In this document: piece after piece, positions 1 to 64,000 of the stretch
Layout of the letters: each line of letters starts with the position of its first letter
How positions within the stretch are numbered: the first letter of the stretch is position 1
Source of the DNA: Bacteroidales bacterium
Lineage (GTDB): Bacteria > Bacteroidota > Bacteroidia > Bacteroidales > UBA932
Direction: 5' to 3'
NCBI GenBank assembly: GCA_017651465.1
Contig: JAGCCX010000061.1
Location: 48,563 to 112,562, forward strand
Length of the DNA stretch: 64,000 bases
Position numbers and translations under genes: made by a program
The notes under the pieces: model-generated
The model's database searches: none
What the model was told of the DNA's origin: nothing
What the model saw: only the letters and a program-made list of their open reading frames with translations

Positions 1-1
1 G

Positions 2-478
2 CTTGATGTAGGATTCTCCGTCGTTGACCTGGGCTTCCTGACCTGGTTCGATACTGTCCACGGCACTATCAACTACAAAGACTGCGTTATCGACGATGCC
101 GAGGAAGGTCTTCAGCTTGAATCGGTTGAAAGCGTCATCAAGACCAAGCTCATCAATTTCAACTTCCACGTTTCCGCAAAGTACCGTATGCCCTTCTACG
201 AAGGCCTGACCGCCGGTATTCTTACTACTTTCCAGAGGCATTTCACCGAGGTCCGTCTTGGACTTGACGTCACTCCCCTCAGGGCCATCAGCCTTGCCGC
301 CTCGACCGCTTTCAACAACTACGGATTCGACTTTGGCGCAGCGCTCAATTTCCGCTTCCCCGGTGTGAACCTGTTCGTGGGCGCGGACTCGTTTGCGGCA
401 TTCAAGATGAACGAATACCACATTCCTTCGTCAAAGGGTATTACCAACGTAACTGCCGGACTTGCAATAGCTTTCTAG
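2..478 (+). CDS. C-terminal part of an outer membrane beta-barrel-like protein (5' end outside window)
   Basis: The frame is open from the left edge of the window to a TAG at 476-478, giving about 158 residues, so this is the 3' end of a larger gene. The translation alternates short hydrophobic and aromatic segments, has many Gly, Phe and Asn residues and ends in Phe, which is typical of an outer membrane barrel C-terminus. It resembles the large Bacteroidota family annotated DUF5723, but that name comes from overall appearance, not from a diagnostic motif. An internal Met at 188 is unlikely to be the start because the same frame continues upstream with the same character. The stop overlaps the stop of the convergent acyltransferase gene inside a shared CTAG at 475-478. 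Confidence 0.6.
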   Translation, partial: LDVGFSVVDLGFLTWFDTVHGTINYKDCVIDDAEEGLQLESVESVIKTKLINFNFHVSAKYRMPFYEGLTAGILTTFQRHFTEVRLGLDVTPLRAISLAASTAFNNYGFDFGAALNFRFPGVNLFVGADSFAAFKMNEYHIPSSKGITNVTAGLAIAF

Positions 479-1611
479 AGCGACTCTACGGGGTTTCCGT
501 AGATGTGCCAGAAAATGTCACGGAGGGCGTCTCGATCGAGGCGCCTTTCGAGTTTGGAGAGCTTGTGTTCGGTGTATGCCTTGAACGCCTCAAGATCTTC
601 GGGTAGATACTTGATTCCCAGGTACTTGGAGGTGCCGTTCATAAGGTCGTAACCCATATAGTTGGTCTTCCAGAGCCGGTATCCGGAGTGGATACGCTGG
701 TCCAATATGCTGCGGAGCAGCTGGTAGCGGTCGTTACCGGTATGCTCCGAGGCGGCCTTGAGCTCTTCGGCGGTGAGAGGCTTGCCTACATTCAGGTGAA
801 TATGGCCTTTTTGCTGCCTGATGCCGGTCAGGATGCTGTGAAGGTCTTCCTTGGGCTTCTTGACGTAAGGCGCTTCCCTGCTGAGCAGCAACTCGCGGGC
901 TTTGCGGCTGTCGCAAGGCTCATACTCGTACGAGATGCTCATAGGAACGATATTCAGTTCTTCGAAGTTCTGCTCGAACCCGTGCTCGCCGCTCATATCG
1001 AACATCTTCAGGAGGCCTTGTTCGGTTTTGTCGATTCCGTTCTTGGAACGCCCTTCCTTTTGGGCTACCCATATCGAGGCTTTGCCCGAGGTGACGCTCA
1101 GGCGGATGTATTTGGAGAGCGTCTGCGAATTCAGGTACATTTGCCGGGCGCTGATGCCGCGGATGACTTTGATCATCCTGTTGGATTTCATCAGGTCCTC
1201 CATAAGCTTGTTGGAAAGCAGGTTGCTTCCTACGCACAGTTCGGCGAACGGGAGCCCCACCTCGTGCATACTATAGAGGATAAGAGCCGGGTCAAGGACT
1301 ATGTCTCTATGGTTGGAAATGGCGAGAAACTTACCATTAATGCTCTGCAGGTTTGACATTCCGGAATAAGTGAAACCCTCCGAGGTCCGGGCAAGGATGG
1401 CGGTAATGACCCCGGTCATTACCACTGCCTGGAACTCATCGATGCTCTTGATGCGCCTCAGCGTACTCCCCAGAAAATCAAGCCCTTCCTTGGGGAAGAG
1501 GTACTTGGAGATCATAGGAAGGGACGGATGGCGCGATACTCGCTGGAGAGCTTCTACAGCCTCTTCGTCGCTGTACGGCCGTATATCTTCGAATTCTGAA
1601 AGATCAATCAT
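475..1611 (-). CDS. Acyltransferase of the glycerolphosphate (PlsC/PlsB-like) superfamily
   Basis: Protein of 378 residues. It carries NHRDIVLD at about residues 100-107, which matches the His-Asp acyltransferase motif (here with five rather than four residues between His and Asp), and EGRS at about 186-189, which corresponds to the second conserved block that binds the phosphate of the acceptor. Family members move an acyl chain from acyl-ACP or acyl-CoA to glycerol phosphate, lysophosphatidate or lipid A precursors at the inner membrane. There is no signal peptide. It lies 33 bases downstream of queA on the same strand and is probably co-transcribed, although a weak TAnnTTTG-like box lies in the gap. 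The exact acceptor cannot be told from sequence. Confidence 0.75.
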   Translation of the reverse strand: MIDLSEFEDIRPYSDEEAVEALQRVSRHPSLPMISKYLFPKEGLDFLGSTLRRIKSIDEFQAVVMTGVITAILARTSEGFTYSGMSNLQSINGKFLAISNHRDIVLDPALILYSMHEVGLPFAELCVGSNLLSNKLMEDLMKSNRMIKVIRGISARQMYLNSQTLSKYIRLSVTSGKASIWVAQKEGRSKNGIDKTEQGLLKMFDMSGEHGFEQNFEELNIVPMSISYEYEPCDSRKARELLLSREAPYVKKPKEDLHSILTGIRQQKGHIHLNVGKPLTAEELKAASEHTGNDRYQLLRSILDQRIHSGYRLWKTNYMGYDLMNGTSKYLGIKYLPEDLEAFKAYTEHKLSKLERRLDRDALRDIFWHIYGNPVESL

Positions 1612-1631
1612 AGCATTGTTTTTAACAAAAA

Positions 1632-1639
1632 CAAATTTA
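1632..1639 (-). promoter_or_regulatory. Possible -7 box for the acyltransferase gene
   Basis: On the minus strand this reads TAAATTTG, matching the Bacteroidota -7 consensus TAnnTTTG, about 20 bases before the start codon at 1611. It would provide a second promoter inside the queA-acyltransferase pair. No clear -33 element was found, so support is weak. Confidence 0.35.
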
Positions 1640-1644
1640 GCAAA

Positions 1645-2850
1645 TTATCTTCTAAATAACAAAGAAGAGTCGCCATAACTAAGGAAACGGAAGCCGTGCC
1701 CGAGAGCGTAATTGTAGATGGTCTGCCAGTCCCCTCCTACAAAGGCGCTGATCAGCAGCAGCAAGGTGCTCTGGGGCTGATGGAAATTCGTTACCATACG
1801 GTCCACCAGCCTGAACTTGAATCCCGGGACAATAATAATGCGAGTGCCTATCTGGAGCTTGTCCAGCTTGTTGTTATCCAGATACTTGACCAGGGCTTCC
1901 AGGGCCTCTTTGGTGCTGTATGTCCAGTCCCGTTCGTACGGCGCCCACTGCGGGACGTCATCGGGATGGCCTTTCTCGATGCAGCAGGCCCCGGCATAAT
2001 AGAGCGATTCGAGGGTGCGCACCGAGGTGGTGCCCACAGCCGTGATGCCGCCGCTGGCGGACTGGATGCGGCTGAGCAGATTGCGGCTCACGCTGAATGG
2101 CTCGCGGTGCATAGGATGAGATGCGATCGTCGAGCTCTTTACCGGAAGGAAAGTCCCTGCTCCCACGTGCAGGCAAACATTCTCAGTATCAACACCCCTG
2201 GCTGCAATCGCTTCCAGCACCTCGGAAGTGAAATGAAGCCCCGCGGTAGGTGCGGCGACGGACCCGCGGATATGAGCGTAAAGAGTCTGATAGCGTTCAA
2301 TATCAATGGCTTCCGTGGCGCGGTTAAGATATGGAGGAATAGGGATTCTGCCGCAGCGCTCCAGCAATTCCGAGAAAGGAATTCCGCCATTCCAGAAAAA
2401 CTCCACGATTCCGGTCTGCCCCTCCCTGCTGACAAGACGGGCCTTGGGAGATATGCCGTCGAAGGCTCCGGACTCGGAATCAAGGTCCAGTATCTCATTG
2501 TCTTTAAGCCTCTTGGAATTGCCGATCACGCACTTCCACCGGCAGCTACCGGTGGCGGCGAAGTTGGTATTATACTCAGAGGGAGTATCGGGCTCAAGGC
2601 AAAAGATCTCGATGTGAGCCCCTGTGGGGCGTTTGAAGAACAAGCGTGCCGGAACGACTTTGGTGTCGTTGAACACCATCATACTGTCGGCGGGAATATG
2701 CTGAGGGAGATTCTTGAATACCGTCTCGGAGCAAATGCCGTCTTTATAAATTAGCAATTTGGATGAGTCGCGCTCGGACAGAGGATATTTTGCGATTCTC
2801 TCGTCGGGCAGCTCGTAGTTGAAATTTTCGATCTTTATATCCGGAATCAT
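1645..2850 (-). CDS. queA: tRNA preQ1(34) S-adenosylmethionine ribosyltransferase-isomerase
   Basis: Protein of 401 residues. QueA transfers and rearranges the ribosyl group of SAM onto 7-aminomethyl-7-deazaguanine at tRNA position 34 to form epoxyqueuosine. Family blocks seen include MMVFNDTKVVPARL near the N-terminus, AAPTAGLHFT in the middle and TNFHQPQSTLLLLISAF near the C-terminus. The start is placed at the Met at 2850 (MIPDIKIENF) because the open frame beyond it (to 2940) has no family character and crosses the -7 promoter box at 2871-2878. The usual family length of roughly 340-410 agrees. It is first in a minus-strand pair with the acyltransferase gene. Confidence 0.95.
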   Translation of the reverse strand: MIPDIKIENFNYELPDERIAKYPLSERDSSKLLIYKDGICSETVFKNLPQHIPADSMMVFNDTKVVPARLFFKRPTGAHIEIFCLEPDTPSEYNTNFAATGSCRWKCVIGNSKRLKDNEILDLDSESGAFDGISPKARLVSREGQTGIVEFFWNGGIPFSELLERCGRIPIPPYLNRATEAIDIERYQTLYAHIRGSVAAPTAGLHFTSEVLEAIAARGVDTENVCLHVGAGTFLPVKSSTIASHPMHREPFSVSRNLLSRIQSASGGITAVGTTSVRTLESLYYAGACCIEKGHPDDVPQWAPYERDWTYSTKEALEALVKYLDNNKLDKLQIGTRIIIVPGFKFRLVDRMVTNFHQPQSTLLLLISAFVGGDWQTIYNYALGHGFRFLSYGDSSLLFRR

Positions 2851-2870
2851 CGTATTCTGATTTAGCGTCA

Positions 2871-2878
2871 CAAATATA
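2871..2878 (-). promoter_or_regulatory. Probable -7 box of the queA promoter
   Basis: The minus strand reads TATATTTG, an exact match to the Bacteroidota TAnnTTTG box, 21 bases upstream of the chosen queA start codon. No convincing -33 TTTG was seen at the expected distance. Confidence 0.55.
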
Positions 2879-2940
2879 GCATTTTTCCTCTCACGCTCGG
2901 CATACATATCGGCCGCTACTTCCCTATTTACAAAATGCAA

Positions 2941-3284
2941 TTAAATGCAACTCTTCTGATTTTACAAGTGTAAACAAATTAAGGGTGTTTTTATATCTTC
3001 TACACAGGGTGATTAACTTATGGTATAAGCTTTTATTATGACATAGTTAGCTATGGTGTAAATGGCTGATAATCAGTAAATAATATATTTTATCTAATTC
3101 TTTGGTTTAGTGTTTGGGCGGTGGTTTTAGACTCTCTTGAAGCGGAACCAAGGGATAATATACTTGTGTTTAAATATTAACTCGCACAAAATCAATTGTT
3201 TAAGCTTATATACCTAAATATATAATTAATATTAAAATGCTTGATTATTGCCTCTCCCCTACCCGTCTTGTCTTTTTGCCATTG
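2941..3284. other. AT-rich intergenic stretch without a recognisable gene
   Basis: Together with the two promoter regions at its edges this is the only gap above 300 bases (2851-3334). It is much richer in A and T than its surroundings, holds no long open frame on either strand, and shows only short inverted repeats: an 11-base perfect palindrome around 3072 and a hairpin-like CATAG/CTATG pair near 3043-3056. I see no tRNA, riboswitch or repeat array in it. It could be regulatory for the divergent genes, or the remains of a lost gene. Confidence 0.6.
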
Positions 3285-3315
3285 TTGTATTTGTTTAAAT
3301 AATTGATTACTTTTG
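3285..3315 (+). promoter_or_regulatory. Promoter of the HTH regulator gene
   Basis: TTG at 3285-3287 and TACTTTTG at 3308-3315, separated by 20 bases, fit the Bacteroidota -33/-7 pattern. The -7 box ends 20 bases before the ATG at 3335. Confidence 0.6.
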
Positions 3316-3334
3316 TAAATCAAATGAACTGCAA

Positions 3335-3655
3335 ATGAACACTCGCCTTCTCCGCTTTTTAGAGGCCGAAAATATCAGCCAGTCTCAGTTCGCCGACAGT
3401 ATCGGCGTAGCCCGCGCCAGTATCTCCCATATTTTGTCGGGGCGCAACAAGCCCGGATTTGATTTCCTGGAAAAACTTGCCTCGCAATATCCAAATCTCA
3501 GCCTCGAATGGCTGGTATCGGGGCGCGGGAGAATGTATAATACCTCCCCAGACGACGCTGAATCTGTCGAAAATCCCCTGCTGAGTGCTCCCAGAGGGCA
3601 AATCGACCGTATCGTAGTGTTCTTTTCTGACGGTACTTTCAAAGAATTCAAGTAA
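3335..3655 (+). CDS. XRE-family helix-turn-helix transcriptional regulator
   Basis: Protein of 106 residues. Residues 1-62 form a Cro/CI-type helix-turn-helix domain (QSQFADSIGVARASISHILS as the HTH core), followed by a WLVSGRG segment often seen after such domains in Bacteroidota. The C-terminal 40 residues have no recognised domain and end in a short beta-rich stretch (IVVFFSDGTFKEF). It stands alone, preceded by its own promoter and by a long AT-rich gap, and no target gene is evident. It might regulate itself or the following operon. There is no membrane segment. Confidence 0.85.
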   Translation: MNTRLLRFLEAENISQSQFADSIGVARASISHILSGRNKPGFDFLEKLASQYPNLSLEWLVSGRGRMYNTSPDDAESVENPLLSAPRGQIDRIVVFFSDGTFKEFK

Positions 3656-3699
3656 GACGGCAGCTTGCATTCGGGCTTTCATTTAATCTGCAATTTGTT

Positions 3700-3707
3700 T
3701 ATATTTG
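3700..3707 (+). promoter_or_regulatory. Probable -7 box for the DHODH-like/cinA operon
   Basis: TATATTTG, an exact TAnnTTTG match, ends 26 bases before the ATG at 3733. A TTTC at 3677-3680, 19 bases upstream, is a one-mismatch -33 element. Confidence 0.55.
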
Positions 3708-3732
3708 TAGGTTAATAGAAGTATGCCATACT

Positions 3733-4527
3733 ATGTACAGCCTTCTTATCCGACCTATAACTCGCAGGATTAAAGACAGCCGCAAGGCTTCTGCCATCGC
3801 ACTTAGGTATTTTAAGTTCGAGGGTATGATACCCGGCGGCCGTTTTCTGAACCGTATGATTCACGGAAACAGGCCGGTAGGGCTTGAGCGTGAAGTTTTC
3901 GGCATCAATTTCTACAATCCCGTGGGACTTGGGGCCGGACTTGACGTTGACGGCGACCTTTACAACGACCTTAACGATCTGGGATTCAGCTTTGTAGAGA
4001 TAGGTCCTTTCTCCGAGGTAGCGGCTATCCGCAAGGCTATCGGACGCCTTCAGTCGGACCCTCCCGACGATATACTCGCCGCGTGCATTGCTAACGACTA
4101 TCTCTCTTCCTTCTGCCTCGCATATGACTTTTGCGACTTTTTCGTGATAGATATTTCCGAGAATCCCGAAATTGAACAGCTGGACGACATACTTGACGCG
4201 AGACTTACCTACGAGGAGTATAAACCCGTTGTGGTCAAGGTTCCCGAAACCCTGGCTCCCGACGATCTCGATTACATCATCGAGTATTGCCTTATGAACA
4301 GCGTAGATGGCATAGAGGCGCGTAATATCCAGCAAATCAGCCATATAAAGGATAAGACCAAGGGGCGTTTACCCATTATCGCCAACTGCCATATCAAGAC
4401 TCCCGCCCAGGCCCGCGAGGCTCTGGATGCCGGCGCATCGCTAATCGAAGTGCGTATGGGGCTTGTACGTGAAGGGCCCTCGCTTGTGGGGCGGATTTTA
4501 AAACATCTGTCAGCCAAAACAAAATGA
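3733..4527 (+). CDS. Dihydroorotate dehydrogenase (PyrD)-like protein with degenerate active-site motifs
   Basis: Protein of 264 residues, against about 320-340 for quinone-dependent PyrD. It aligns by eye with that family: NPVGLGAGLD (family NPVGLAAGFD), FSFVEIGPF, PVVVKVPETL, and AREALDAGASLIEV near the end. Two catalytic or cofactor regions are altered. The usual SSPNT block reads ISENPEI, and the glycine-rich FMN phosphate loop (family roughly GVGGI) reads ANCHI. The true pyrimidine enzyme may therefore be elsewhere and this one may bind a different ligand or lack activity. It overlaps the next gene by 4 bases (ATGA). The start at 3733 follows a good -7 box. Confidence 0.7.
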   Translation: MYSLLIRPITRRIKDSRKASAIALRYFKFEGMIPGGRFLNRMIHGNRPVGLEREVFGINFYNPVGLGAGLDVDGDLYNDLNDLGFSFVEIGPFSEVAAIRKAIGRLQSDPPDDILAACIANDYLSSFCLAYDFCDFFVIDISENPEIEQLDDILDARLTYEEYKPVVVKVPETLAPDDLDYIIEYCLMNSVDGIEARNIQQISHIKDKTKGRLPIIANCHIKTPAQAREALDAGASLIEVRMGLVREGPSLVGRILKHLSAKTK

Positions 4528-5006
4528 ATGTAGAACAGCGAATAGGTCTTTTGCTTAAAGAGCACGGCTGGAGCCTCAGTGCCGCCGAATCGTGTACAGG
4601 AGGACGAATATCGCACCTTTTGACCACCGTGTCAGGGTCTTCGGCGTATTACCTGGGTTCAGTTACATCCTATGCCGTAAGCGTTAAAGAAAAGGTTCTG
4701 GGAGTGTCCCCCGCCATAATAGAGAGCAAGGGGCTGGTGAGCAGCGAAGTTGCGGCTTCTATGGCCGAGGGAGTAAGACGCATTACCGGCAGTACTTTTT
4801 CCGTTGCTACCACCGGACTTGCCGAAGGGAGCGACGGACGTTATCCCGAGGGTACGGTGTGGATCGGATCCTGTGGTCCGGAGGGTACTTTTACTGAAAT
4901 TTTCCAATGCAACGGGCCCCGAAAGTCCAATATCAGGCACTTTACGACCGCTGCGCTCCGTTTTTTGGAGAAAACCATTAAGAATTACATAAGTAATTGT
5001 AAATAA
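4524..5006 (+). CDS. pncC: CinA C-terminal domain / nicotinamide-nucleotide amidohydrolase family
   Basis: Protein of 160 residues, the usual size of stand-alone CinA-C/PncC proteins, which deamidate NMN to nicotinate mononucleotide in pyridine nucleotide salvage. AESCTGG at residues 21-27 is the signature block with the catalytic Ser, followed by a SVTSYAVSVKEKVLGV segment equivalent to the family's Tyr/Lys region. The later ATTGLAEGS block is a variant of the common ATGIAGP. The start overlaps the stop of the PyrD-like gene by 4 bases, so the two are translationally coupled. The gene symbol rests on domain family only. Confidence 0.85.
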   Translation: MNVEQRIGLLLKEHGWSLSAAESCTGGRISHLLTTVSGSSAYYLGSVTSYAVSVKEKVLGVSPAIIESKGLVSSEVAASMAEGVRRITGSTFSVATTGLAEGSDGRYPEGTVWIGSCGPEGTFTEIFQCNGPRKSNIRHFTTAALRFLEKTIKNYISNCK

Positions 5007-5058
5007 ACTAATAGAACAATTTAGTTATAGGTGTTAACATTTTTGTTAAGGCTATAAA

Positions 5059-5658
5059 ATGATTAAAAAAGCACTTTTTGCCATCTTGGTTGCGGGCATT
5101 TTTGTTTCCTGCCAGCGCAACTTGATACCCGAGACGATCGACGTGCCGGAATCGGTGGTCAACACTGTTGAAGCAACAAGCGACGGTAGGATACGTATTG
5201 CCTTGAGCGGCAGTTCAAATTTGAAAGACTACATCAAAGTCTCATATGCAATGGTCGGCCTGGACTCCTGGAAAGAAAAGGGCACTTTCAATAACATCCC
5301 TACAAGCCGTTCTTTCGATGCGATGGAAGGCAGCGCCAAATTTGCCGTATATGCCGAAAAGATTCAAGACATTCCTCCTGCTATGTTCAGCAGCGAAGAC
5401 GGTTTTACCCTGGAGCTCTCTGCCTCGGTTGCTACCCCTTTTGAAGGCAAAGAGTATGTTTTGTGCAGCTTAAAGAATGCGAAGGTAAAGGATGAGAACG
5501 AACTGCTATCCAAGACGGTGAAAGCTATCAACGAGGGCATCGGCGAAGAAATGCCTGGTACCGGTAAAAAGCGTTTTTTGCGCTTTGATGTAGCCGCCGA
5601 TGACAATGGCGACTTATGTGTCAGTACTATCTTTGAATCGGGTAATATAATTGATTGA
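5059..5658 (+). CDS. Small lipoprotein of unknown function upstream of the decarboxylase operon
   Basis: Protein of 199 residues with a typical lipoprotein signal: basic start, hydrophobic stretch and lipobox ending in Cys18 (GIFVSC). The mature part is hydrophilic, beta-rich and without a domain I recognise. It ends only 9 bases before mmdA, so it may be the first gene of that operon, yet nothing in its sequence links it to biotin or sodium transport. The upstream 52 bases are AT-rich and hold a weak TTAAC/GTTAA hairpin but no clear promoter. Confidence 0.7.
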   Translation: MIKKALFAILVAGIFVSCQRNLIPETIDVPESVVNTVEATSDGRIRIALSGSSNLKDYIKVSYAMVGLDSWKEKGTFNNIPTSRSFDAMEGSAKFAVYAEKIQDIPPAMFSSEDGFTLELSASVATPFEGKEYVLCSLKNAKVKDENELLSKTVKAINEGIGEEMPGTGKKRFLRFDVAADDNGDLCVSTIFESGNIID

Positions 5659-5667
5659 TAAGAGTTT

Positions 5668-10565: not shown

Positions 10566-10618
10566 CACAACGGGAACGCTTCCGGGTCTTCACACGGCAG
10601 CGGCCTGTCGGTTTAGAA

Positions 10619-10651
10619 GCCTGGCACTCAACAGGGTGCCGGGCTTTCTTT
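10619..10651 (+). terminator. Rho-independent terminator after the decarboxylase operon
   Basis: A 9-bp stem (10619-10627 with 10636-10644, one G-T pair) with an 8-base loop is followed by TTTCTTT. It separates the EEP gene from the V-ATPase promoter 10 bases further on. Confidence 0.75.
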
Positions 10652-10660
10652 ATTTGTTTA

Positions 10661-11883: not shown

Positions 11884-13638
11884 ATGGCTACAAAAGGCAC
11901 GGTGACAGGAATTGTTTCCAACCTGGTGACGGTCAAAGTTGACGGTCCCGTTGGAGAGAACGAACTCTGTCATATAAACCTTGGCGGCACATTGCTGCTT
12001 GCCGAGGTAATTAAAGTAACTGGCGATCTTGCCTCGGTGCAGGTATTCGAGAGCACGCGCGGCCTGAAGAACGGCGACGAGGTGACCTTCCTTGGCAGGA
12101 TGCTCGAGGCCAGTCTCGGCCCGGGACTCCTGTCGGGAGTCTATGACGGCCTGCAGAACGACCTCACCACTATGACCGGGGTGTTCCTTAAGAGAGGAGA
12201 ATATACCGATCCCCTGGATCACAGCAAGTTGTGGGATTTCAAACCTATTGCCTCCGTGGGCGACAAGGTAGTGGCAGCCGACTGGCTGGGAGAGGTTATG
12301 GAAGGCTGGCTGCCTCACAAGATAATGGTTCCGTTCAGCTTCAGCGGAGAATATACCGTGCGCAGCATCGCTCCCGAAGGCTCCTACAACATCGATCAGA
12401 CCATCGCCGTTCTTGCGGATGCCGAGGGCGAGGAACACAAGGTTACTATGTGCCAGAAATGGCCGGTGAAAGTGGCGGTTAGAGGCTACCGCGAGAAACC
12501 CCGTCCGAGCAAGATAATGGAGACGGGAGTGCGCATCATCGACACTTTCAATCCCATAGCCGAGGGCGGTACCGGATTCATCCCCGGTCCTTTCGGCTGC
12601 GGCAAGACCGTGCTCCAGCACGCCATTGCCAAGCAGGGCGAGGCCGACCTGGTGGTTATGGCCGCCTGCGGCGAGCGCGCCAACGAGGTGGTGGAGATTT
12701 TTACCGAGTACCCCGAACTCATCGACCCGCATACTGGCCGCAAGCTGATGGAGCGTACCGTTATCATATGCAACACCTCCAATATGCCGGTTGCAGCCCG
12801 TGAGGCCTCGGTATATACGGCTATGACCATATGCGAGTACTACCGTGCGATGGGATACCGCTGCCTGCTTCTTGCCGACTCCACTTCGCGCTGGGCCCAG
12901 GCCCTGAGGGAGATGTCCAACCGTATGGAAGAGCTTCCCGGACAGGACGCTTTCCCCGTGGACCTCTCGGCCATCATCTCCAATTTCTACGCCCGTGCCG
13001 GACAGGTGGTGCTCAACAACGGCGAGACCGGGGCGGTGACTTTCATCGGCACTGTCTCCCCTGCCGGCGGCAATCTCAAGGAGCCGGTAACCGAAAGTAC
13101 CAAAAAGGCCGCCCGTTGCTTCTATGCTCTCGAGCAGAACCGCGCCGACCAGAAGCGCTACCCTGCCGTGAATCCGGTGGAGTCGTATTCCAAGTATCTG
13201 GAATATCCCGAAATCCAGCGTACACTCGAGAGTACGGTGGAGCGTGGCTGGATCGATAAAGTGCTGGAAGCCAAGGTGCTTGTGCGCCGCGGAAAAGAGA
13301 TGGCCGACCAGATCAACATCCTGGGCGACGATGGCGTGCCTATGAGCTATCACGAGGCATTCTGGAAGAGCGAGCTTATAGATTTCGGCTTCCTCCAGCA
13401 AGATGCATTCGACGCCATCGACTCCGTGTGCCCTATGGAGAGGCAGAAGTATATGCTCGACCTCATACTTGATATTTGCCGCCGCGAATTCAATTTCGAG
13501 GATTACGAGAAGTGCCGCTCCTATTTCAAAGAAATGATTAATATCCTCAGGCAGATGAACTACTCCGAGTTCAAGTCGGAAGGATTCGAAAACTACCTTG
13601 CATCCCTGACCAAACTACTCTCCGAAAATGGCAACTAA
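11884..13638 (+). CDS. atpA: V-type ATP synthase catalytic subunit A
   Basis: Protein of 584 residues, normal for subunit A. It contains the Walker A loop GPFGCGKT at about residues 235-242, a Walker B region ending LLADSTSRW, and the non-homologous region between residues 110 and 190 that distinguishes V/A-type A subunits from F-type beta. It hydrolyses or makes ATP in the A3B3 head. The C-terminal 11 bases overlap atpB, implying coupled translation. Confidence 0.96.
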   Translation: MATKGTVTGIVSNLVTVKVDGPVGENELCHINLGGTLLLAEVIKVTGDLASVQVFESTRGLKNGDEVTFLGRMLEASLGPGLLSGVYDGLQNDLTTMTGVFLKRGEYTDPLDHSKLWDFKPIASVGDKVVAADWLGEVMEGWLPHKIMVPFSFSGEYTVRSIAPEGSYNIDQTIAVLADAEGEEHKVTMCQKWPVKVAVRGYREKPRPSKIMETGVRIIDTFNPIAEGGTGFIPGPFGCGKTVLQHAIAKQGEADLVVMAACGERANEVVEIFTEYPELIDPHTGRKLMERTVIICNTSNMPVAAREASVYTAMTICEYYRAMGYRCLLLADSTSRWAQALREMSNRMEELPGQDAFPVDLSAIISNFYARAGQVVLNNGETGAVTFIGTVSPAGGNLKEPVTESTKKAARCFYALEQNRADQKRYPAVNPVESYSKYLEYPEIQRTLESTVERGWIDKVLEAKVLVRRGKEMADQINILGDDGVPMSYHEAFWKSELIDFGFLQQDAFDAIDSVCPMERQKYMLDLILDICRREFNFEDYEKCRSYFKEMINILRQMNYSEFKSEGFENYLASLTKLLSENGN

Positions 13639-24183: not shown

Positions 24184-27585
<3,402 letters not shown>

Positions 27586-34028: not shown

Positions 34029-35216
34029 TTACTCTACGTATAGCAGTAGTCCCTTGAGGTATTCTCCCTCGGGGTGATATATGCTCACCGGATGGTCCCC
34101 GCCCTGACACAGGCGGTCCACTATCCTCACGCTCCTGCCGGTCTGGGCAGCTGCGCTGAACACAAGCTGGGCGAATGTTATCTTGTCCACCACCTGCGAG
34201 CAACTGAAAGTAAAGACGAGCCCTCCGGGCGACACCCTTGAAATTGCTGCCGCATTAAGCCTCTGATATGCGCGGAGGGCGTTGTTCAGCGCCCCGCGGT
34301 GCTTTGCGAATGCAGGCGGATCGACAATGATAAGGTCGTACTTCCCTTCCGGAGTCGCGGAAAGGAAATCTATCGCATCGGTACAAAATGAATTATGCCT
34401 GTCCGCCTTGCCTGTAAGCGCAACATTCCTGTCCACGAGCGCCATTGCCTTGGCGGAAGAATCGACGCTGTCAACCTGCGCGGCGCCTCCTTCGAGGGCG
34501 TAGATGCTGAAGCCGCCGGTATAACAGAAAAGATTGAGGACGCGGCGTCCGGGAGCATATTTGCCCACCAGGTAACGGTTGTCTCTCTGGTCGAGGAAGA
34601 AGCCGGTCTTCTGGCCCTCTTCCCAGTTGACCATAAAAGAATGCCCGTTTTCGAGCACGCAAGTCTCGGCTCCCGCAAACGAGGGCGCTTGATACAAGTA
34701 ACCGTCAACGAGTTCCAGACCGGCCTTGAAGGGTGCGGTAGATGAACTCTTGTCGTAAACGGCTTTCAGCGAATCGCCGAATACTGCCTGAAGAGCCTCG
34801 CAGATGCTTTTCTTGGCACGGAACATTCCAACGCTGTGTGCCTGAAGCACGCAAACGCCGTCGTACCAGTCTATTATAAGCCCGGGAAGACCGTCTCCCT
34901 CACCGTGGACAAGCCGGAAGCAGTTTGTCTGAGGGGACGGCAGTCCTAGCGCCTCCCGCTCCAGGCGGGCTCGCTCGATGGCAATCGTCCAAAAATCAGG
35001 AGAAAGCGGGTCGCCGGAAAAGCTCAGCACCCTTACGGCGATCGAGCCTATTTGGTAATGGCCCGATGCCAGGAACTCCCCCTCTGCGCTATGTACGGCA
35101 ACTATGTCCCCCTCGTGCGGGTGACCCTGTATCTGAGCTATGGCACCTGAAAACACCCAGGGGTGGAAGCGGCGCAGCGACTCATCCCTGCCCTTCTTCA
35201 GTATTACTTTTATCAT
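34029..35216 (-). CDS. Class I SAM-dependent rRNA methyltransferase, RlmI-like
   Basis: Protein of 395 residues. It has an N-terminal PUA-like domain (residues 1-75) with RRFHPWVFSGAI, a small middle domain and a Rossmann methyltransferase with VLNLFCYTGGFSIYAL (SAM binding) and the catalytic-type DPPAFAKHRG. RlmI methylates C5 of a cytosine in 23S rRNA; the exact site here is not certain. The first 35 bases overlap the end of the exonuclease gene. It is convergent with ispG and their stop codons abut with no gap. Confidence 0.9.
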   Translation of the reverse strand: MIKVILKKGRDESLRRFHPWVFSGAIAQIQGHPHEGDIVAVHSAEGEFLASGHYQIGSIAVRVLSFSGDPLSPDFWTIAIERARLEREALGLPSPQTNCFRLVHGEGDGLPGLIIDWYDGVCVLQAHSVGMFRAKKSICEALQAVFGDSLKAVYDKSSSTAPFKAGLELVDGYLYQAPSFAGAETCVLENGHSFMVNWEEGQKTGFFLDQRDNRYLVGKYAPGRRVLNLFCYTGGFSIYALEGGAAQVDSVDSSAKAMALVDRNVALTGKADRHNSFCTDAIDFLSATPEGKYDLIIVDPPAFAKHRGALNNALRAYQRLNAAAISRVSPGGLVFTFSCSQVVDKITFAQLVFSAAAQTGRSVRIVDRLCQGGDHPVSIYHPEGEYLKGLLLYVE

Positions 35217-45760: not shown

Positions 45761-46837
<1,077 letters not shown>

Positions 46838-55019: not shown

Positions 55020-55038
55020 AGCCCTTTTAGTAATTTTG
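55007..55038 (+). promoter_or_regulatory. Promoter of the CoA transferase gene
   Basis: TTTG at 55007-55010, inside the end of the preceding gene, and TAATTTTG at 55031-55038 with a 20-base spacer. The leader to the ATG at 55047 is only about 8 bases. Confidence 0.6.
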
Positions 55039-55046
55039 CGCTCTGA

Positions 55047-56342: not shown

Positions 56343-56357
56343 TCCCCTGGCGAACAA

Positions 56358-57749: not shown

Positions 57750-57753
57750 AAAC

Positions 57754-58623
57754 TCAGAATCTAAAGCCTACGCTGACCCCGAAGGCCGGGGCCGGATTAA
57801 ATGCAAGCTGGGTGTCGGGCATTATTACGGTCGGCTTGACCTCGAATGCCATATCGTCAACGATTTCAAAATCGTGCATATAGGAGAAAACGTTGGCGTC
57901 TATTACCTGAAGCAGATACACCAGTGCGATGGCCAGTACGGAATAGTCGCGGTAGCGCCTGAAAACATCCCGGTAATAGAGGGCCTGCTCCGATGTGATA
58001 GGTCCCGTGTAGGGCACGTCTTTGTTGGTGGCCTCCTTATAGATGCGGCGGTAGCGCTGGTAATTGATGTTGTTGGTATCGTAGAAATAATACGCCGCGC
58101 CCATTCCGCCGATGTATATGGGGATTTTCCAGAATTCACCGTTGTAGGCCTGACCGAGGCCGGGCAGGAGGAGCGAATACAGGGTGGCCTTGCCCGGTAA
58201 GGGGTAAGCATCAGTCTTGTAGCTTACCACGCCGTCCATAAGTGTGGCCCAGTAAGCCACTCCCGCGCCTATGAAGCAGTACTTCGCGCCTTCGTGACGA
58301 CCCTGGGTATTCAGGTATATGCCGGTGCCGAGAGGGGCCAAGATGGCCGAATAGACTATAGGCAGCTTCCAGTACTGGCGATTGTATATCTGTTCTCCTC
58401 CGACGAACAAGAGAGAGCCCGTGAACATAGTTCCGATTTTGATCTCGTCTTTGTGAGACAGACCGGCAAAATAGTCTTTGAAAGAGAAGAGTACATCGGT
58501 AGAATCCTTGCTGGTGGCCTTGTCGTCGTTGTACGACTGCTGGAACGCTTCCGAGCGGAATTGCGCGGAAGCGCCTGCGGCGATCAGGACAAACAAAAGC
58601 GTTACAAGGAACTTTTTCATCAT
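57754..58623 (-). CDS. DUF5683 envelope protein
   Basis: Protein of 289 residues with a signal peptide (LIAAGASAQ). The middle has three to four hydrophobic segments (for example PIVYSAILAPLGTGIYL and IPIYIGGMGAAYYFY) and the family's LPGLGQAYNGEFWKIPIY block; the end GVSVGFRF looks like a barrel terminal strand. DUF5683 proteins are common in Bacteroidota next to parB, and their function is unknown. The start overlaps the parB stop by 4 bases. Confidence 0.85.
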   Translation of the reverse strand: MMKKFLVTLLFVLIAAGASAQFRSEAFQQSYNDDKATSKDSTDVLFSFKDYFAGLSHKDEIKIGTMFTGSLLFVGGEQIYNRQYWKLPIVYSAILAPLGTGIYLNTQGRHEGAKYCFIGAGVAYWATLMDGVVSYKTDAYPLPGKATLYSLLLPGLGQAYNGEFWKIPIYIGGMGAAYYFYDTNNINYQRYRRIYKEATNKDVPYTGPITSEQALYYRDVFRRYRDYSVLAIALVYLLQVIDANVFSYMHDFEIVDDMAFEVKPTVIMPDTQLAFNPAPAFGVSVGFRF

Positions 58624-59546
58624 TTCAATCCTTCCAGGGCGCTGAGGAACCCTTCGATTTCCTCGTCCGAATCAAACCTGACCGTCATAGAGCCCTTGCC
58701 GGAGGCGGAGCGCTTGACGGAAATATCTTTGCTGAAATAACGACCCATATAAGAAAGAAGGCGCACGTACTGCTCCGGAAGAGGATCTTCGCTCCGGGGA
58801 TGAGTCTTGATGGAAGGAGCGGCCGAGCCTTGGCGCACAAGCGCCTCCAGCTCGCGCACCGACAGCCTTCCGGCTACCACGCACTCGCACAGCTGTTCCT
58901 GCATTTCGGGATCTTCCACGCTCAGCAGCACCTTTGCGTGCCCGGTCGAAATAAGGCCGACTTTAAGGTCGTGCTGAACTTTTACCGGCAGTTTGAGCAG
59001 CCTGAGCGTATTGGCCACCGTGGCTCGCTTCTTGCCCACACGGTCCGCCATTTGCTCCTGGGTAAGGCCGCATTCATCGATAAGGCGCTGATAGCTCATA
59101 GCCACCTCGATGGGGTCGAGATCTTCCCTCTGGACATTCTCGACAATTGCCATCTCAAGCATGCCCTGGTCGTCCGTGGGACGGACATAGGCGGGAATCA
59201 TAGTCATTCCGGCAAGACGGCAGGCCCTGAACCGGCGCTCACCGCTGATAATCTGGTAATGGCCGTCGGGAAGGCGTCTGACCGTAATGGGCTGGATAAG
59301 GCCGAGGGTGCGTATCGACGAGGCCAGTTCTTCGATGGACTCCTGGTCGAAACTTACCCGGGGCTGGAAAGGATTGGCCTGAACCATATCAGCCGGAATG
59401 CGGAAGATATCGCTGTCCGAAGCGGGACCCTCCCCGGCAATTTGCTTATTGATGTAGCCTACCGGCCTTCGTAATTCCTCCACGCGGGGCACGGAACCTA
59501 TAAGCGCGCCCAGACCTTTGCCCAGGCCTCTGTTCTTTACACTCAT
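58620..59546 (-). CDS. parB: Chromosome partitioning protein ParB
   Basis: Protein of 308 residues. The N-terminal CTP-binding and ParB/Srx region has GERRFRACRLAGMTMIPAYV with the conserved GERR and RAA-like box, then IVENVQREDLDPIEVAMSY, a helix-turn-helix (LTQEQMADRVGKKRATVANT) and a C-terminal dimer region. ParB spreads from parS sites and works with ParA in chromosome segregation. It overlaps parA and the DUF5683 gene by 4 bases each. No parS site was found in the window. Confidence 0.95.
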   Translation of the reverse strand: MSVKNRGLGKGLGALIGSVPRVEELRRPVGYINKQIAGEGPASDSDIFRIPADMVQANPFQPRVSFDQESIEELASSIRTLGLIQPITVRRLPDGHYQIISGERRFRACRLAGMTMIPAYVRPTDDQGMLEMAIVENVQREDLDPIEVAMSYQRLIDECGLTQEQMADRVGKKRATVANTLRLLKLPVKVQHDLKVGLISTGHAKVLLSVEDPEMQEQLCECVVAGRLSVRELEALVRQGSAAPSIKTHPRSEDPLPEQYVRLLSYMGRYFSKDISVKRSASGKGSMTVRFDSDEEIEGFLSALEGLK

Positions 59547-60328
59547 ACTTCAGAGGGTTTATCTCCGTTACGTTCCAGCAACTCGGATGCCAGGTTAAGA
59601 TAATTTGACGATCCGGTGCAGGAAATCTCATACAGCAGCACCGGCTTGCCGTGGGAAGGGGCCTCGCTGAGACGTATGTTGCGCTGGATGACGGTCTTGA
59701 ACACCAGATCCTTGAAATGCTCGCGCAGCTCGGAGAGAACCTGCTGGTGCACTTTGGTGCGGCCGTCGAACATAGTAACCACGAAGCCCTCTATGGTAAG
59801 ATCCGGATTGAGTCCGTTCTGGATGATACGGATGGTCTGCAGGAGCTTTCCAAGGCCCTCAAGGGCAAAAAACTCGGGCTGGACGGGAATTATTACCGAG
59901 TCAGCCGCTGTGAGCGTGTTGACTGTAATAAGGCCCAGCGAAGGTGAGCAATCGATGATTATGTAATCGTAATTATTACGTATCGGAGCGATGGCTTTCT
60001 TGAGGGCGGACTCGCGGTCCGGCTCGTTTATCATTTCTATCTCGATGCCAACCAGATTGATGTGTGACGGAATCATATGCAAGCCGTCCATTTCCGTCTG
60101 GATGAGGGTGTCCTCCACGGCGATCGTCCCTTCCATCAGCTCATAGAGGCTGCGGTGGCGGTCGTCGTCGGGAGAAAAATTCAGCCCCGACGTAGTATTT
60201 GCCTGAGGGTCAGCGTCAATGATGAGTACCTTTTTCTCCAGAGCGGCAAGCGACGCGGCCAGATTGATGGCCGTGGTGGTCTTGCCTACCCCACCCTTCT
60301 GATTGGCTATAGCTATTACTTTACCCAT
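59543..60328 (-). CDS. parA: Chromosome partitioning ATPase ParA (Soj)
   Basis: Protein of 261 residues with a deviant Walker A motif KGGVGKTT at the N-terminus, IDADPQANTTSGLN (A') and DYIIIDCSPSLGL (Walker B). It is the ATPase that moves ParB-parS complexes. The start at 60328 (MGKVIAIANQKGG) is chosen because an in-frame Met at 60337 lies within the -7 box. The -7 box ends 7 bases before this start, so the mRNA may be leaderless. It leads the operon parA-parB-DUF5683-mltD. Confidence 0.95.
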   Translation of the reverse strand: MGKVIAIANQKGGVGKTTTAINLAASLAALEKKVLIIDADPQANTTSGLNFSPDDDRHRSLYELMEGTIAVEDTLIQTEMDGLHMIPSHINLVGIEIEMINEPDRESALKKAIAPIRNNYDYIIIDCSPSLGLITVNTLTAADSVIIPVQPEFFALEGLGKLLQTIRIIQNGLNPDLTIEGFVVTMFDGRTKVHQQVLSELREHFKDLVFKTVIQRNIRLSEAPSHGKPVLLYEISCTGSSNYLNLASELLERNGDKPSEV

Positions 60329-60334
60329 ATTATG

Positions 60335-60342
60335 CAAAAATA
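60335..60342 (-). promoter_or_regulatory. -7 box of the parA operon
   Basis: Minus strand TATTTTTG, an exact TAnnTTTG match whose last base lies 7 bases before the parA ATG. It is divergent from the lipid kinase promoter 12 bases away. Confidence 0.55.
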
Positions 60343-60354
60343 CGAAATAATTCT

Positions 60355-60362
60355 TACTTTTG
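60355..60362 (+). promoter_or_regulatory. -7 box of the lipid kinase gene
   Basis: TACTTTTG, an exact TAnnTTTG match, ending 5 bases before the ATG at 60367, so transcription would begin at or next to the start codon. Confidence 0.55.
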
Positions 60363-60366
60363 CACT

Positions 60367-61311
60367 ATGACTGAGCCTAAAACTGAATGGTTTATAATAG
60401 TCAATCCCCGCGCCGGTTCGGGTAAGACTATGTCGCTGTGGGTGCCTGCCGAACAGAAGATGCAGAAACTGGGCATCCCCTTCATTACGGCAATGACTGA
60501 CCACAAACGTCACGCGACCGCACTTGCACACGATGCTGCCGCCGAGGGCTACCGCAAGATTCTGGCTGTAGGCGGAGACGGTTCCCTGCACGAAACCCTG
60601 GCCGGAATTGCCCGCTACTGCGACGATTCCGGCACTTCCACCGAGGAATTCACTCTCGGTGTAATGCCTATTGGCTCGGGTAACGATTGGCTCAAGTCGC
60701 TTGATGTCCCCAACGACCTTGATAAAGTGATCGAACTGGTGGAGAGGAACTCAGTCGGCAAAATGGACATAGTCAAGGTGACCGGAGGCGGAGGCAAAGT
60801 CTGCTATATGGCCAACGTGGGCGGCACCGGTTTCGACTCGCACGTATGCAGCAGGGTCAACTTCCAGAAAGAAGGCGGTAAGAGGGGCAAACTGATTTAC
60901 CTCGACGCCCTTCGCTATACCATCACCCACATAAACCCGATATCGGTCAAAGTAGTGGCCGACTCAAGCACGGTTTTCGAGGGCGCCTGCTACTCGATTG
61001 CCCTTGGCAACGGCCGGTACAGCGGCTCCGGTATGCGTCAGGTTCCGTTAGCCACAATCGACGATGGTATAATGGATTATATGATTGTACCTAAAGCGCC
61101 GCTTCATTCACTTGTAAAACAGATTCCAAAACTTTTCAACGGAACTGTCAACGAGTCGCCGCTCGTCATTTCGGGACGCTGCAAGCATCTGCTCATCGAG
61201 CCCCTCGACGAACAGTCGGAAGACATCTTTGAACTGGACGGCGAGATTGAAGGCAAACTGCCTATGAGCATCGAGATGGACGGCCGCCAGATCAATGTCA
61301 TCAGAGCTTGA
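60367..61311 (+). CDS. Diacylglycerol/lipid kinase family protein (YegS-like)
   Basis: Protein of 314 residues. NPRAGSGKTMSLW near the start, VGGDGSLHETLAG (GGDGS nucleotide motif) and GVMPIGSGNDWLKSL are the DAGK catalytic-domain signatures, and GNGRYSGSGMRQVPLA follows in the second domain. These cytosolic enzymes phosphorylate diacylglycerol or related lipids, recycling lipid after envelope reactions. It may be translated from a leaderless mRNA. The last 11 bases overlap the convergent helix-hairpin-helix gene. Confidence 0.9.
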   Translation: MTEPKTEWFIIVNPRAGSGKTMSLWVPAEQKMQKLGIPFITAMTDHKRHATALAHDAAAEGYRKILAVGGDGSLHETLAGIARYCDDSGTSTEEFTLGVMPIGSGNDWLKSLDVPNDLDKVIELVERNSVGKMDIVKVTGGGGKVCYMANVGGTGFDSHVCSRVNFQKEGGKRGKLIYLDALRYTITHINPISVKVVADSSTVFEGACYSIALGNGRYSGSGMRQVPLATIDDGIMDYMIVPKAPLHSLVKQIPKLFNGTVNESPLVISGRCKHLLIEPLDEQSEDIFELDGEIEGKLPMSIEMDGRQINVIRA

Positions 61312-62842
61312 GTTCATACTGAAGCTTTACTTCAAGTTTACCTTTCTTAGTATTTGTCATCCAAGGATATTGGATGTCTGATACCCTCAGGTAAAAATGA
61401 TGCCTGCGGCTGGGTTTCCAAGCCCCGTACACCGAGGCTGCCCAGCCCTTGCCGTAGTACGCCGGCACATTGAAATTGCCCGGTGCGTCACGCTCGTAAA
61501 CATATATACGTCCGTCCCAGTCGTCAACTCTGAAGAGCGTCCATCGCAAATAAAACTTGAACTTTTCGGATTCTCTTCCTCCCTCGACATTAAAGAGCCA
61601 GGAGAACTCGTCGGTATGTACCAAGTCCAGCCTGCATTTCAGTATCCATTTCCAGGCTTCCAGCTTTAACTCTCCCCTGCCCTCGAGCCTCCAGTCATTC
61701 TTTTTGCACGCAGCCGCACGTACCGAAGGACTTATTACCAAGGCCCCCGCGGGGAATGAGGGCGACCACTTCCCAAGAAGCCTGAACTGCTTGGAGGAAT
61801 AATAAACAACGGCGTCCCAGCTTGCCGAAGATGCACCTGCGGCAAGCTCCGGCAGTCCTTGGGTGTAGCGCCCCATTGCGCCTATCCTGGTACCATAAAC
61901 CGGTATCCAGAAAGCTCCGAGCACAGCCTCGGGATGCCCTTTCCAGCACAATTCGCCATACAAGCCCACATTGGGCAGGCCGGCCCTGAAGTCGGCCGAC
62001 AGGGCTTGTGAAGTAGCGTTCAGCCCGGCCATAAACCGCTTGCCTATATATGACAGATTGCCCATTGGCGTACCGTCGGCAAAAGAATATGCGGCAGCCA
62101 GCGACCATCCTTTATAGTCAAAATCGGCTGCTATTCCACAGAATCCCGGACTATATGATCCGGTAGGCGAAAAGCCTGTGGGGCTGCGCCTGAATGAGGA
62201 TACCGAACTCCAGGGCTGAAGAGAAAAGCCGCTCCATACCGCCAGTCCCTGTCCAAGCCTTGCGTTGAAGTGGCCCAGGACTACTTTCCCAAGATACTTG
62301 CGGCCGTAGTACGCTGCGCTGAACGTGCCTATACCAGGGCTCACTTCATCGTAGGTGCTTCGGGCAGCCCAGTTCAGTTCCGCCCTTTCGCCAAGGGACG
62401 CCTTGTAGCGGAAGCCTCCCGCGTACTGCAGTTTGTCTGAAGACTTTGCAGAGGCGCGAAGCATAAGGTCGTGATGCAGTTTATGCGCTTTTTTTTTGCC
62501 CGGAGGGCCCGAGGAACTAAGGCGCGTGAAAGGCTTCAGAGCCTCGGCATATTCCGGTCCGAAGCCGTCGATGAGGGCAAGTTCGGTGTAAGACAGAATA
62601 TCTCCCGAGCGTTCCCTCTCGTCAAGCAGGGCGGCAACCTGAAAAGGGCTCAGCAGACCGCAAGAGAGCAAACGGCTGCGGGGGCAGAGATTAAGCTCTA
62701 CGGGGCGCAATTCCAGGGCCCTGTAGGCTTCGAGAGTAGTTTGATCAAGATCTTCCAGGCAAGAGGCTCCGCACAAAAAAAGAACCGCCTCCTCAAACCC
62801 GGGACCTGCGTAGCACAGGAACAACAAGAGCAGTGTTTTCAT
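61301..62842 (-). CDS. Exported protein with helix-hairpin-helix start and beta-barrel body
   Basis: Protein of 513 residues. The first 25 residues are hydrophobic and may be a signal peptide, though the cleavage site is unclear. Residues about 45-110 carry helix-hairpin-helix-like repeats (SRLLSCGLLSPFQVAALLDE, then ILSYTELALIDGFGPEYAEAL), as in ComEA-type DNA-binding proteins. From about 130 to the end the protein is rich in Tyr, Trp and Gly in alternating strands and ends LEVKLQYELKL, like an outer membrane barrel. Proteins with this build occur in Bacteroidota and their role is unknown; DNA handling at the surface is a guess. Confidence 0.75.
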   Translation of the reverse strand: MKTLLLLFLCYAGPGFEEAVLFLCGASCLEDLDQTTLEAYRALELRPVELNLCPRSRLLSCGLLSPFQVAALLDERERSGDILSYTELALIDGFGPEYAEALKPFTRLSSSGPPGKKKAHKLHHDLMLRASAKSSDKLQYAGGFRYKASLGERAELNWAARSTYDEVSPGIGTFSAAYYGRKYLGKVVLGHFNARLGQGLAVWSGFSLQPWSSVSSFRRSPTGFSPTGSYSPGFCGIAADFDYKGWSLAAAYSFADGTPMGNLSYIGKRFMAGLNATSQALSADFRAGLPNVGLYGELCWKGHPEAVLGAFWIPVYGTRIGAMGRYTQGLPELAAGASSASWDAVVYYSSKQFRLLGKWSPSFPAGALVISPSVRAAACKKNDWRLEGRGELKLEAWKWILKCRLDLVHTDEFSWLFNVEGGRESEKFKFYLRWTLFRVDDWDGRIYVYERDAPGNFNVPAYYGKGWAASVYGAWKPSRRHHFYLRVSDIQYPWMTNTKKGKLEVKLQYELKL

Positions 62843-62880
62843 AGTCTATAGTTTACACCGCAATATACGATTATTTTGCC

Positions 62881-62888
62881 TATATTTG
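62881..62888 (+). promoter_or_regulatory. -7 box of the DAK2-domain gene
   Basis: TATATTTG, an exact consensus match, 10 bases before the ATG at 62898. Confidence 0.55.
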
Positions 62889-62897
62889 TATCTTGTT

Positions 62898-64000
62898 ATG
62901 CAGAAAGAAAACGTACGAACCTATAACCTTGGCGGAGATTTGTATTTGAAGATGCTGTCACAGGGTTGTGCGCGCCTTGGAAAAAACCGCCAGGCAATCA
63001 ATGATTTGAATGTTTTTCCCATTCCGGACGGAGATACCGGAGATAATATGTGTCTGACTCTTGAGGCCGGCTATGCCCAGGCATCGCCCCTTCACGGAGC
63101 TTCCCTCTGCGAGATTGCAAATGCTGTTTCTTCGGGTATGCTGATGGGCGCCCGGGGCAATTCCGGAGTTATACTTTCGCGTATTTTCGCCGGCCTGGCC
63201 AAAGGCCTTTCCGGCCTTAAGGAAACCGATACGGCGGGCTTTGCCGCCGCTATGGCAAGTGCGGTCACCGAGGCTTACAGTTCTGTTTCCAAGCCTGTTG
63301 AAGGCACTATACTGACCGTTGTACGTGAAGGCGCCGACAGTGCCGCTCCTCATAAAAAAGACTCTATGGAGAATTACATTTCGGCACTGACCCACGCTAT
63401 GGAAGACTCCCTCGAAAGGACCCCCGACAAACTCCAGGTCCTTAAGGAGGCGGGAGTCGTGGACAGCGGCGGCGCAGGCCTGCTCCAGATTTTCTACGGA
63501 TTTCAGGATGCTCTTCTCGGCATAGAAGACGGGCACCACGAGACTGTCGGTGCTCCCTCGGGCCAGAAAGTTGATCTTTCGGCCTTCGACGAGAATACGG
63601 AACTTGAATTCGGCTACTGTACCGAGTTCCTGCTGCGCCTTCAGAGCAGCAAAGTCAATCTTGACACTTTCGACGAAAAAGAAATTGAAGATTATATCCT
63701 CGGAGCCGGCGACTCGGTGGTGTTTTTCCGCGAGGGCAGCATCATCAAGGTGCACGTGCATACCAAGAAGCCCGGAGATATACTTAACAAATGCCAGCGC
63801 TGGGGCGAATTCCTGACCCTCAAGATCGAGAATATGACCCTACAGCATCACAATTCGTCTTTCGCCCCCAAGAACGAAGAAGTTAAGCGCAAGGACTTCG
63901 GCATCGTCACCGTCGCCAACGGCAGCGGCCTCATAGAGGCATTCAAGACGCTGGGAGCCGACTACGTGGTGGAAGGCGGCCAGACAATGAACCCCTCCGT
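62898..64000 (+). CDS. DAK2-domain protein, FakA/YloV-like (3' end outside window)
   Basis: Open from ATG 62898 (MQKENVRTYNLGGDLYLKML) to the right edge, giving 367 residues of a protein usually about 530-560 long. NVFPIPDGDTGDNM supplies the Asp cluster that binds nucleotide-magnesium, and MGARGNSGVILSRIFAGLAK is the second DAK2 block. A middle domain from about residue 230 contains GYCTEFLLRL and IIKVHVHTKKPGDIL. FakA phosphorylates fatty acids bound to FakB partners so that exogenous acids can enter phospholipids. No fakB gene is seen in the window. Confidence 0.88.
   Translation, partial: MQKENVRTYNLGGDLYLKMLSQGCARLGKNRQAINDLNVFPIPDGDTGDNMCLTLEAGYAQASPLHGASLCEIANAVSSGMLMGARGNSGVILSRIFAGLAKGLSGLKETDTAGFAAAMASAVTEAYSSVSKPVEGTILTVVREGADSAAPHKKDSMENYISALTHAMEDSLERTPDKLQVLKEAGVVDSGGAGLLQIFYGFQDALLGIEDGHHETVGAPSGQKVDLSAFDENTELEFGYCTEFLLRLQSSKVNLDTFDEKEIEDYILGAGDSVVFFREGSIIKVHVHTKKPGDILNKCQRWGEFLTLKIENMTLQHHNSSFAPKNEEVKRKDFGIVTVANGSGLIEAFKTLGADYVVEGGQTMNPS

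Follow-up and report, generated by a model that had tools for sequence, protein, structure and literature searches.

The 64,000-nucleotide stretch of a Bacteroidales genome analysed here (GenBank assembly GCA_017651465.1, positions 48563-112562 of contig JAGCCX010000061.1; hereafter the window) has been purged almost completely of the tetranucleotide CATG, and the purge was probably caused by Type II restriction at CATG, by a system that is gone from this genome or not recognised in it. An exact count over positions 1-64000 gave three CATG (47 per Mb), at 24448-24451, 45970-45973 and 59160-59163, the same three sites that an earlier note on this DNA had found by eye. Base composition predicts 247 sites and a second-order Markov model 211. 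When synonymous codons were permuted inside the 60 long open reading frames (ORFs) of the window, preserving every protein and the codon usage, 206 ± 11 CATG were expected (ratio 0.015, z -18.4; lowest of 100 shuffles 181), so that the strong deficit anticipated in the note appears against both kinds of expectation, and the shaping of the codons before Met codons that it had described is thereby measured. CATG ranked first for depletion among the 256 tetramers and no other came near, that is, the deficit is not shared by many unrelated words; the next most depleted was CTAG (14 versus 68 expected), followed by the overlapping words CTAA/TTAG. The note's statement that other palindromes are common held for GTAC (193 versus 238 expected, 0.81) and TCGA (365 versus 308, 1.19), but GATC was mildly low (177 versus 273, 0.65). 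The pattern is the depletion of a specific palindrome that goes with Type II site avoidance, CTAG being also low, as in many relatives.

Most of the DNA sampled elsewhere in the same genome was purged as well. The sample comprised the window, the 18 readable of 20 stretches taken from 20 contigs, and three later stretches, i.e. 22 stretches and 409 kb in all (about 16% of the genome), and contained 207 CATG versus 1,437 expected. CATG was unevenly spread over two classes of DNA: 154 of the 200 two-kb bins held 0 or 1 CATG, together 20 versus 1,033 expected, and the remaining 46 bins, with at least two, held 179 versus 350, about half of the expected number. Among the later stretches, L175 and L202 had been chosen for their methylase genes, and L203 lies on the same contig; when all three are left out, 29 of 174 bins (window included) have at least two CATG. 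The genome-wide deficit suspected in the earlier note is thus present in most of the sampled DNA but not everywhere. Gene content was read for part of the CATG-richer stretches: besides a Type I restriction system, they carry an 886-aa methylase frame with a PLD-helicase-like gene close by, and an island in which a nucleotidyltransferase-like gene accompanies an ATPase-HNH pair. CATG-richer DNA with such defence genes was probably acquired after the purge, or too late for it, and the ratio of about 0.5 in the CATG-richer bins may reflect a partial purge or a partly purged donor. The island (L175; positions 1-14000 of contig 78) carries a solo 446-aa methylase besides the nucleotidyltransferase-like gene and the ATPase-HNH pair, in which an AAA ATPase precedes an HNH protein and which we take to be Septu-like; the island has half of the expected CATG. 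L202 (positions 76000-95646 of contig 17; CATG 28 versus 73) carries Type I genes together with helicase-like, exonuclease-like and regulator-like genes; we read the Type I genes as hsdR, hsdS and hsdM, the last also by its match to PF02384.

The purge separates this genome from its nearest relatives. The V-type ATPase subunit A gene of the window (11884-13638, + strand) was used as a query to fetch 80 homologous loci, and a locus was called purged when its observed/expected CATG ratio was below 0.2. Eight of the 80 loci were purged (L024, 0 observed versus 75 expected; L033, 3/71; L037, 8/50; L043, 10/61; L045, 13/85; L083, 0/99; L087, 2/69; L094, 0/64), and 72 were not below the threshold. 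By the same test GATC was low in two loci, AGCT in two, GCGC in one and CTAG, which is generally low in this group, in 24. Purged rows occur at scattered places in the tree, beside normal sisters, and the two rows nearest the window are normal (1.01 and 0.89). In aligned DNA, none of the 69 CATG sites of L021 and none of the 59 sites of L034, the two nearest relatives, were kept in the window, whereas the unpurged pair L021-L034 kept 24 of 70 sites at similar divergence. Other purged comparisons behaved likewise (0 of 120 sites kept from L073 to L083, 0 of 90 to L094 and 0 of 101 to L087), as opposed to the other unpurged pairs, L073-L088 (46 of 93) and L073-L078 (16 of 42). The other palindromes of L021 were kept in the window at 20-53%, except for the rare CTAG (0 of 8, as in the unpurged pair). 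Three unpurged pairs give a CATG loss rate of about 4.9 per unit nucleotide divergence, at which retention of none of 69 sites has p ~6e-12; the relatives compared differ by 14-24%. The residual 1.4-1.9% of expected CATG in purged DNA implies that selection is ongoing or ended within about 0.3-0.5% divergence, by a rough model in which every leftover CATG is treated as regained.

Two further depletions were seen in the panel. Across the whole of L083 (genome G043) AGCT is purged too (4 versus 56 expected), with one of 93 L073 AGCT sites kept, versus 40 of 71 in L094, which is a second site purge in one lineage. GATC fell below 0.2 in L036 (15/94) and L071 (3/18), a milder parallel to the CATG purge.

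We propose that CATG sites were cut, or put at risk when under-methylated, by a Type II system with the specificity of NlaIII, and that selection at the DNA level would then have removed the sites from the lineage, mostly through whichever base change was silent in the local frame. The candidate for this system is a three-gene cassette, putatively an N6/N4 methylase, an IceA/NlaIII-like nuclease and an HpyI-like D12 adenine methylase, found in a few related genomes. The nuclease family ICEA (PF05315), which we take to be the iceA1 family of Helicobacter pylori, was matched in one of the 45 genomes of a first panel and in four of 400 genomes of the genus, the panel's genome (G044, listed again as G217) being among the four. 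The order in G044, G154 and G415 is N6/N4 methylase (M1, 262-300 aa), ICEA nuclease and D12 methylase (M2, about 334 aa), i.e. the nuclease stands beside a D12 methylase in all three; M2 is cut by the contig end in G154, and G375 has an intact M2 and a nuclease truncated at the end of its contig. Phage relatives of M2 are annotated 'ulcer associated adenine specific DNA methyltransferase', presumably the name of the H. pylori gene. The iceA1 protein is 52% identical to NlaIII (PMC2749054) and the target of M.HpyI is CATG (PMC10423294). By this resemblance the specificity of the cassette would be CATG.

Carriage of M2 was statistically linked to the purge. At 1e-20, 13 of the 400 genomes matched M2, of which seven, with at least 65% identity, were counted as carriers, and their pooled CATG ratios were 0.02 (G375), 0.03 (G043), 0.10 (G154), 0.19 (G044), 0.195 (G185; 25/128), 0.43 (G151) and 0.65 (G415). 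In G044 the ratio was 0.03 at the V-ATPase locus, and one fetched contig was CATG-rich. A ratio below 0.2 was found in five of the seven carriers versus four of 28 random genomes (Fisher p 0.006; rank test p 0.002), the random set being 28 readable genomes of the genus with one contig each, and the tests taking no account of kinship. In the 80-genome panel M2, at 70% identity to the query, was present in two of the eight purged genomes and none of the 72 others (p 0.009), both carriers being closely related to each other; the count leaves out three matches of lower identity (28-36%), each of which lies in an unpurged genome. The weaker matches among the 400 genomes (31-38% identity; G105, G162, G171, G186, G291 and G366) were likewise unpurged where sampled, with ratios of 0.46 in G105 and 0.79-1.01 in the others.

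The cassette was found at different stages of completeness. In G043 (also G441) the neighbouring genes are those of G044, at 80-86% identity, with 20 bases in place of the 1.8 kb that hold M1 and the nuclease in G044. G043 keeps M2 without M1 or ICEA. Of its six readable stretches five are free of CATG, and the other one, a 3.2-kb contig, has 14 versus 21 expected. Similarly, G151 has M2 alone at the site where G415 has all three genes. One clade thus presents three stages, with the complete cassette in G044, an orphan methylase in G043 and none of the genes found in G045, and CATG is near zero in most of the stretches read. The three assemblies are drafts, however, and G045 may have genes that its assembly lacks. 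In G185, M1 and M2 flank a different protein (L273, 5500-6654) with sub-threshold EVE-like and RE_Alw26IDE Pfam matches, which by its position is a candidate CATG endonuclease of another family.

Several other methylases of the group were considered and rejected. The D12 methylases of G005, G009, G013 and G016, from the same genus, and that of G041 do not explain CATG. The neighbour of the G016 methylase is a DpnII (GATC) nuclease by Pfam, and G013 and G041 have ORFs that by eye look like it; the DpnII-like GATC loci, with methylases that by eye are very similar, lie at 12426-15051 of L139 (G016), 9626-12290 of L140 (G013) and 6170-8834 of L174 (G041). GATC observed/expected ratios in these D12-bearing genomes were 0.28-0.49 in G005 and G009, 0.34 in G041 (one locus), 0.34 and 0.87 in G013, and 0.67 and 0.74 in G016, and GATC is only moderately lowered in the last three genomes. 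Across 44 genomes, the presence of PF01555 did not track CATG depletion. G038, which belongs to another family, has one CATG-poor 10-kb stretch (2/24) holding a D12 methylase beside a DUF protein. Sulfurospirillum plasmids encode relatives of the D12 methylase at 62% and 52% identity, with no nuclease-annotated gene in the fetched flanks.

The window's own genome (G000; 2,515,177 bases in 85 contigs, the window lying on contig 58; estimated 95.1% complete) yielded no match to ICEA (PF05315), none to PF02086 for a D12 methylase, none to the cassette M2 at 1e-20, and no relative of M1. The methylase genes found were a single PF01555 gene, encoding the solo 446-aa methylase (contig 78, 1792-3132), and two PF02384 matches, the Type I HsdM and the 886-aa frame. 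All three lie in stretches where CATG is at 0.4-0.6 of expected, above the purged DNA. Among 58 other genomes, the 446-aa methylase had one distant match (25%, G063) and one short match (G059); the best-ranked of its plasmid matches were relatives at 37-40% identity, and PDLC03351 matched only this gene, weakly. Inside the window, the DNA-methylase motif [DNS]PP[YFW] was absent from all 60 long frames and tblastn with the relatives' cassette proteins gave no match, which bears out the earlier remark that no CATG restriction-modification gene lies there. The cause proposed in the earlier note, restriction-modification, is well supported through the relatives by the purge, the silent and phase-specific losses described below, the patchiness and the cassette, but the matching methylase that the note proposed to look for was not found in this 95%-complete assembly among the methylase families searched.

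Most probably the lack of CATG records a system that was lost very recently. Our slight preference for loss rests on G044, G043 and G045, which show, respectively, the complete cassette, an orphan methylase and none of the genes found, their core DNA being purged in every case. Several points weigh against the explanation by such a restriction system. No CATG system was found in G000, in a search that did not extend to PF00145 (C5) and PF07669 (Eco57I-type). Six of the eight purged panel genomes lack an HpyI-like methylase, four purged genomes of the random 28 are not M2 carriers, and two carriers, G415 with its complete cassette (0.65) and G151 (0.43), are unpurged; the association tests are also uncorrected for kinship. 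Finally, H. pylori has the same kind of system and abundant CATG (PMC10423294); a purge therefore does not follow from the system alone.

Another reading, which shares the agent and therefore overlaps with ours, is that a CATG system is still present and active in G000, of a family unrecognised or unsearched, or encoded in the unassembled 5%. We regard this as a tentative but serious possibility. The ratio of about 0.014-0.019 is so low that, by the rough model above, selection must be ongoing or have ended very recently; the solo 446-aa methylase is of unassigned specificity; the purged G185 has an unrelated protein between its two methylases; and the six purged genomes without the known methylase would also fit. 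A precedent could be UpaP162 of Ureaplasma parvum, a CATG nuclease and methylase in a two-gene operon, the nuclease being without relatives according to its authors (PMC6191088); its likeness to the present case lies in its described CATG specificity. Against an active system stand the lack of any D12 or ICEA gene found in G000 and the position of its known methylases in CATG-richer, apparently later acquired DNA.

Sites of L021 were classed by reading frame, either the 32 that are also present in L034 or L022, or 68 without this second-relative filter. In the set of 32, all seven sites in the CAT|G frame became CACG; the 22 in the NNC|ATG frame became TATG (13), AATG (5), GATG (3) or one other; and the three in the xCA|TG frame lost the A each time. 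Twenty-nine of the 32 losses were synonymous, that is, the losses were mostly silent and not of a single mutational type. Every CATG frame has a silent escape, so a full purge is possible without protein change, and since the losses follow codon phase they point to selection against the site and not to decay of a methylated cytosine. Loss by mutation, in which a methylated C of CATG would deaminate to give TATG or CATA without selection, is accordingly improbable in our view. TATG was the most frequent product, at 26 of the 68 window sites read in coding orientation, but all 26 were in the NNC|ATG frame, where A and G also replace C before ATG; in the CAT|G frame TATG and CATA were absent among 18 sites, 14 of which had changed silently to CACG (T to C), and the D12 family is described as adenine-specific. 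CATA did replace CAT|G in four of 11 sites in L083 and four of 10 in L094, which leaves room for a minor part, and in that clade there may be a small mutational contribution. Deamination has been argued in part for ACGT in hpEastAsia H. pylori, which has 53 per Mb, 5-methylcytosine deamination being given a major role together with selection (PMC10423294). The density there is similar to that of CATG in the window and the loss is likewise lineage-specific, but here the changes are mostly silent and fall at any base of CATG.

An agent acting on RNA, e.g. an endoribonuclease toxin cutting CAUG and selecting against CATG in transcripts, seems very improbable. CATG is palindromic, and strand asymmetry cannot separate RNA from DNA. 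However, intergenic DNA is equally purged, with one CATG versus 36 expected in 22 loci picked as purged and 43 versus 36 in 21 loci picked as unpurged, untranslated transcript ends being included in the count, which favours a DNA-level agent over an RNA-cutting toxin. A general low-palindrome or genus-wide compositional habit, for which the low CTAG of the window (0.21) and of the 24 panel loci might speak, has next to no likelihood, given that the nearest relatives are normal for CATG and that 72 of 80 loci are not below 0.2.

As for the genes of the window, the first residual CATG lies inside a phosphofructokinase ORF (24184-25413, - strand; Pfam PFK), the second inside a glyceraldehyde-3-phosphate dehydrogenase ORF (45761-46837, + strand; Pfam Gp_dh) and the third inside the ORF at 58620-59546 (- strand). 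Other genes include those for a V-type ATPase, TamL, LigA, a RelA/SpoT protein and a methylmalonyl-CoA-decarboxylase-like subunit. Among 12 different window proteins scanned, the sole methyltransferase (34032-35216), which also matches PADLOC mad2, is an RNA methyltransferase by our reading of its Pfam matches. V-ATPase subunit A places the genome, which is that of an uncultured gut bacterium, among uncultured Bacteroidales, many from ruminants, with Candidatus Cryptobacteroides among the rows, and judged by this protein the genome is that of a Cryptobacteroides-like bacterium.

As a rule, the avoidance of restriction sites shows as a partial deficit within a single genome. It is a known phenomenon, which is here extreme. 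Rusinov et al. 2015 (PMC4687349) report that about half of orthodox Type II systems are accompanied by avoidance, and that avoidance can be left behind by lost systems. The present case resembles that description in that a host palindrome is depleted and a system occurs in relatives and not in the genome itself, and differs in being near-complete (about 1.5% of expected in the window), in separating relatives at 14-24% divergence, and in a codon-phase spectrum that can be read directly. Like the HpyI (iceA1-hpyIM) and NlaIII systems, the cassette of a few window relatives pairs an ICEA-family nuclease with a D12 methylase; unlike at iceA1-hpyIM, it has a second, N6/N4-type methylase, and the window's genome lacks these genes. 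To our knowledge the H. pylori iceA1-hpyIM locus is without a second methylase. Among the methylated motifs studied in H. pylori, CATG is the densest (9,036 per Mb) and is little under-represented (PMC10423294), contrary to what these Bacteroidales show. The present case stands out by the completeness of the purge, by its pairs of near relatives, by a spectrum of silent changes and by its contrast with H. pylori.

A wider conjecture, which we hold to be rather unlikely, is that G000 keeps an active CATG defence of families not yet linked with CATG, and that such systems arose or spread repeatedly in the genus, each time driving the host quickly to near-complete site loss, so that old DNA would be told from incoming DNA largely by its lack of CATG rather than by methylation alone. 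Over one and the same 20 kb, near relatives have 0 CATG on one side and more than 100 on the other; such before-and-after pairs could measure how fast a purge proceeds, which mutations it uses and how long the scar outlives the system. They could also help to explain how CATG stays abundant in H. pylori in the presence of a system of the same kind. Furthermore, CATG density may separate old from newly acquired DNA in these genomes at a resolution of about 2 kb.

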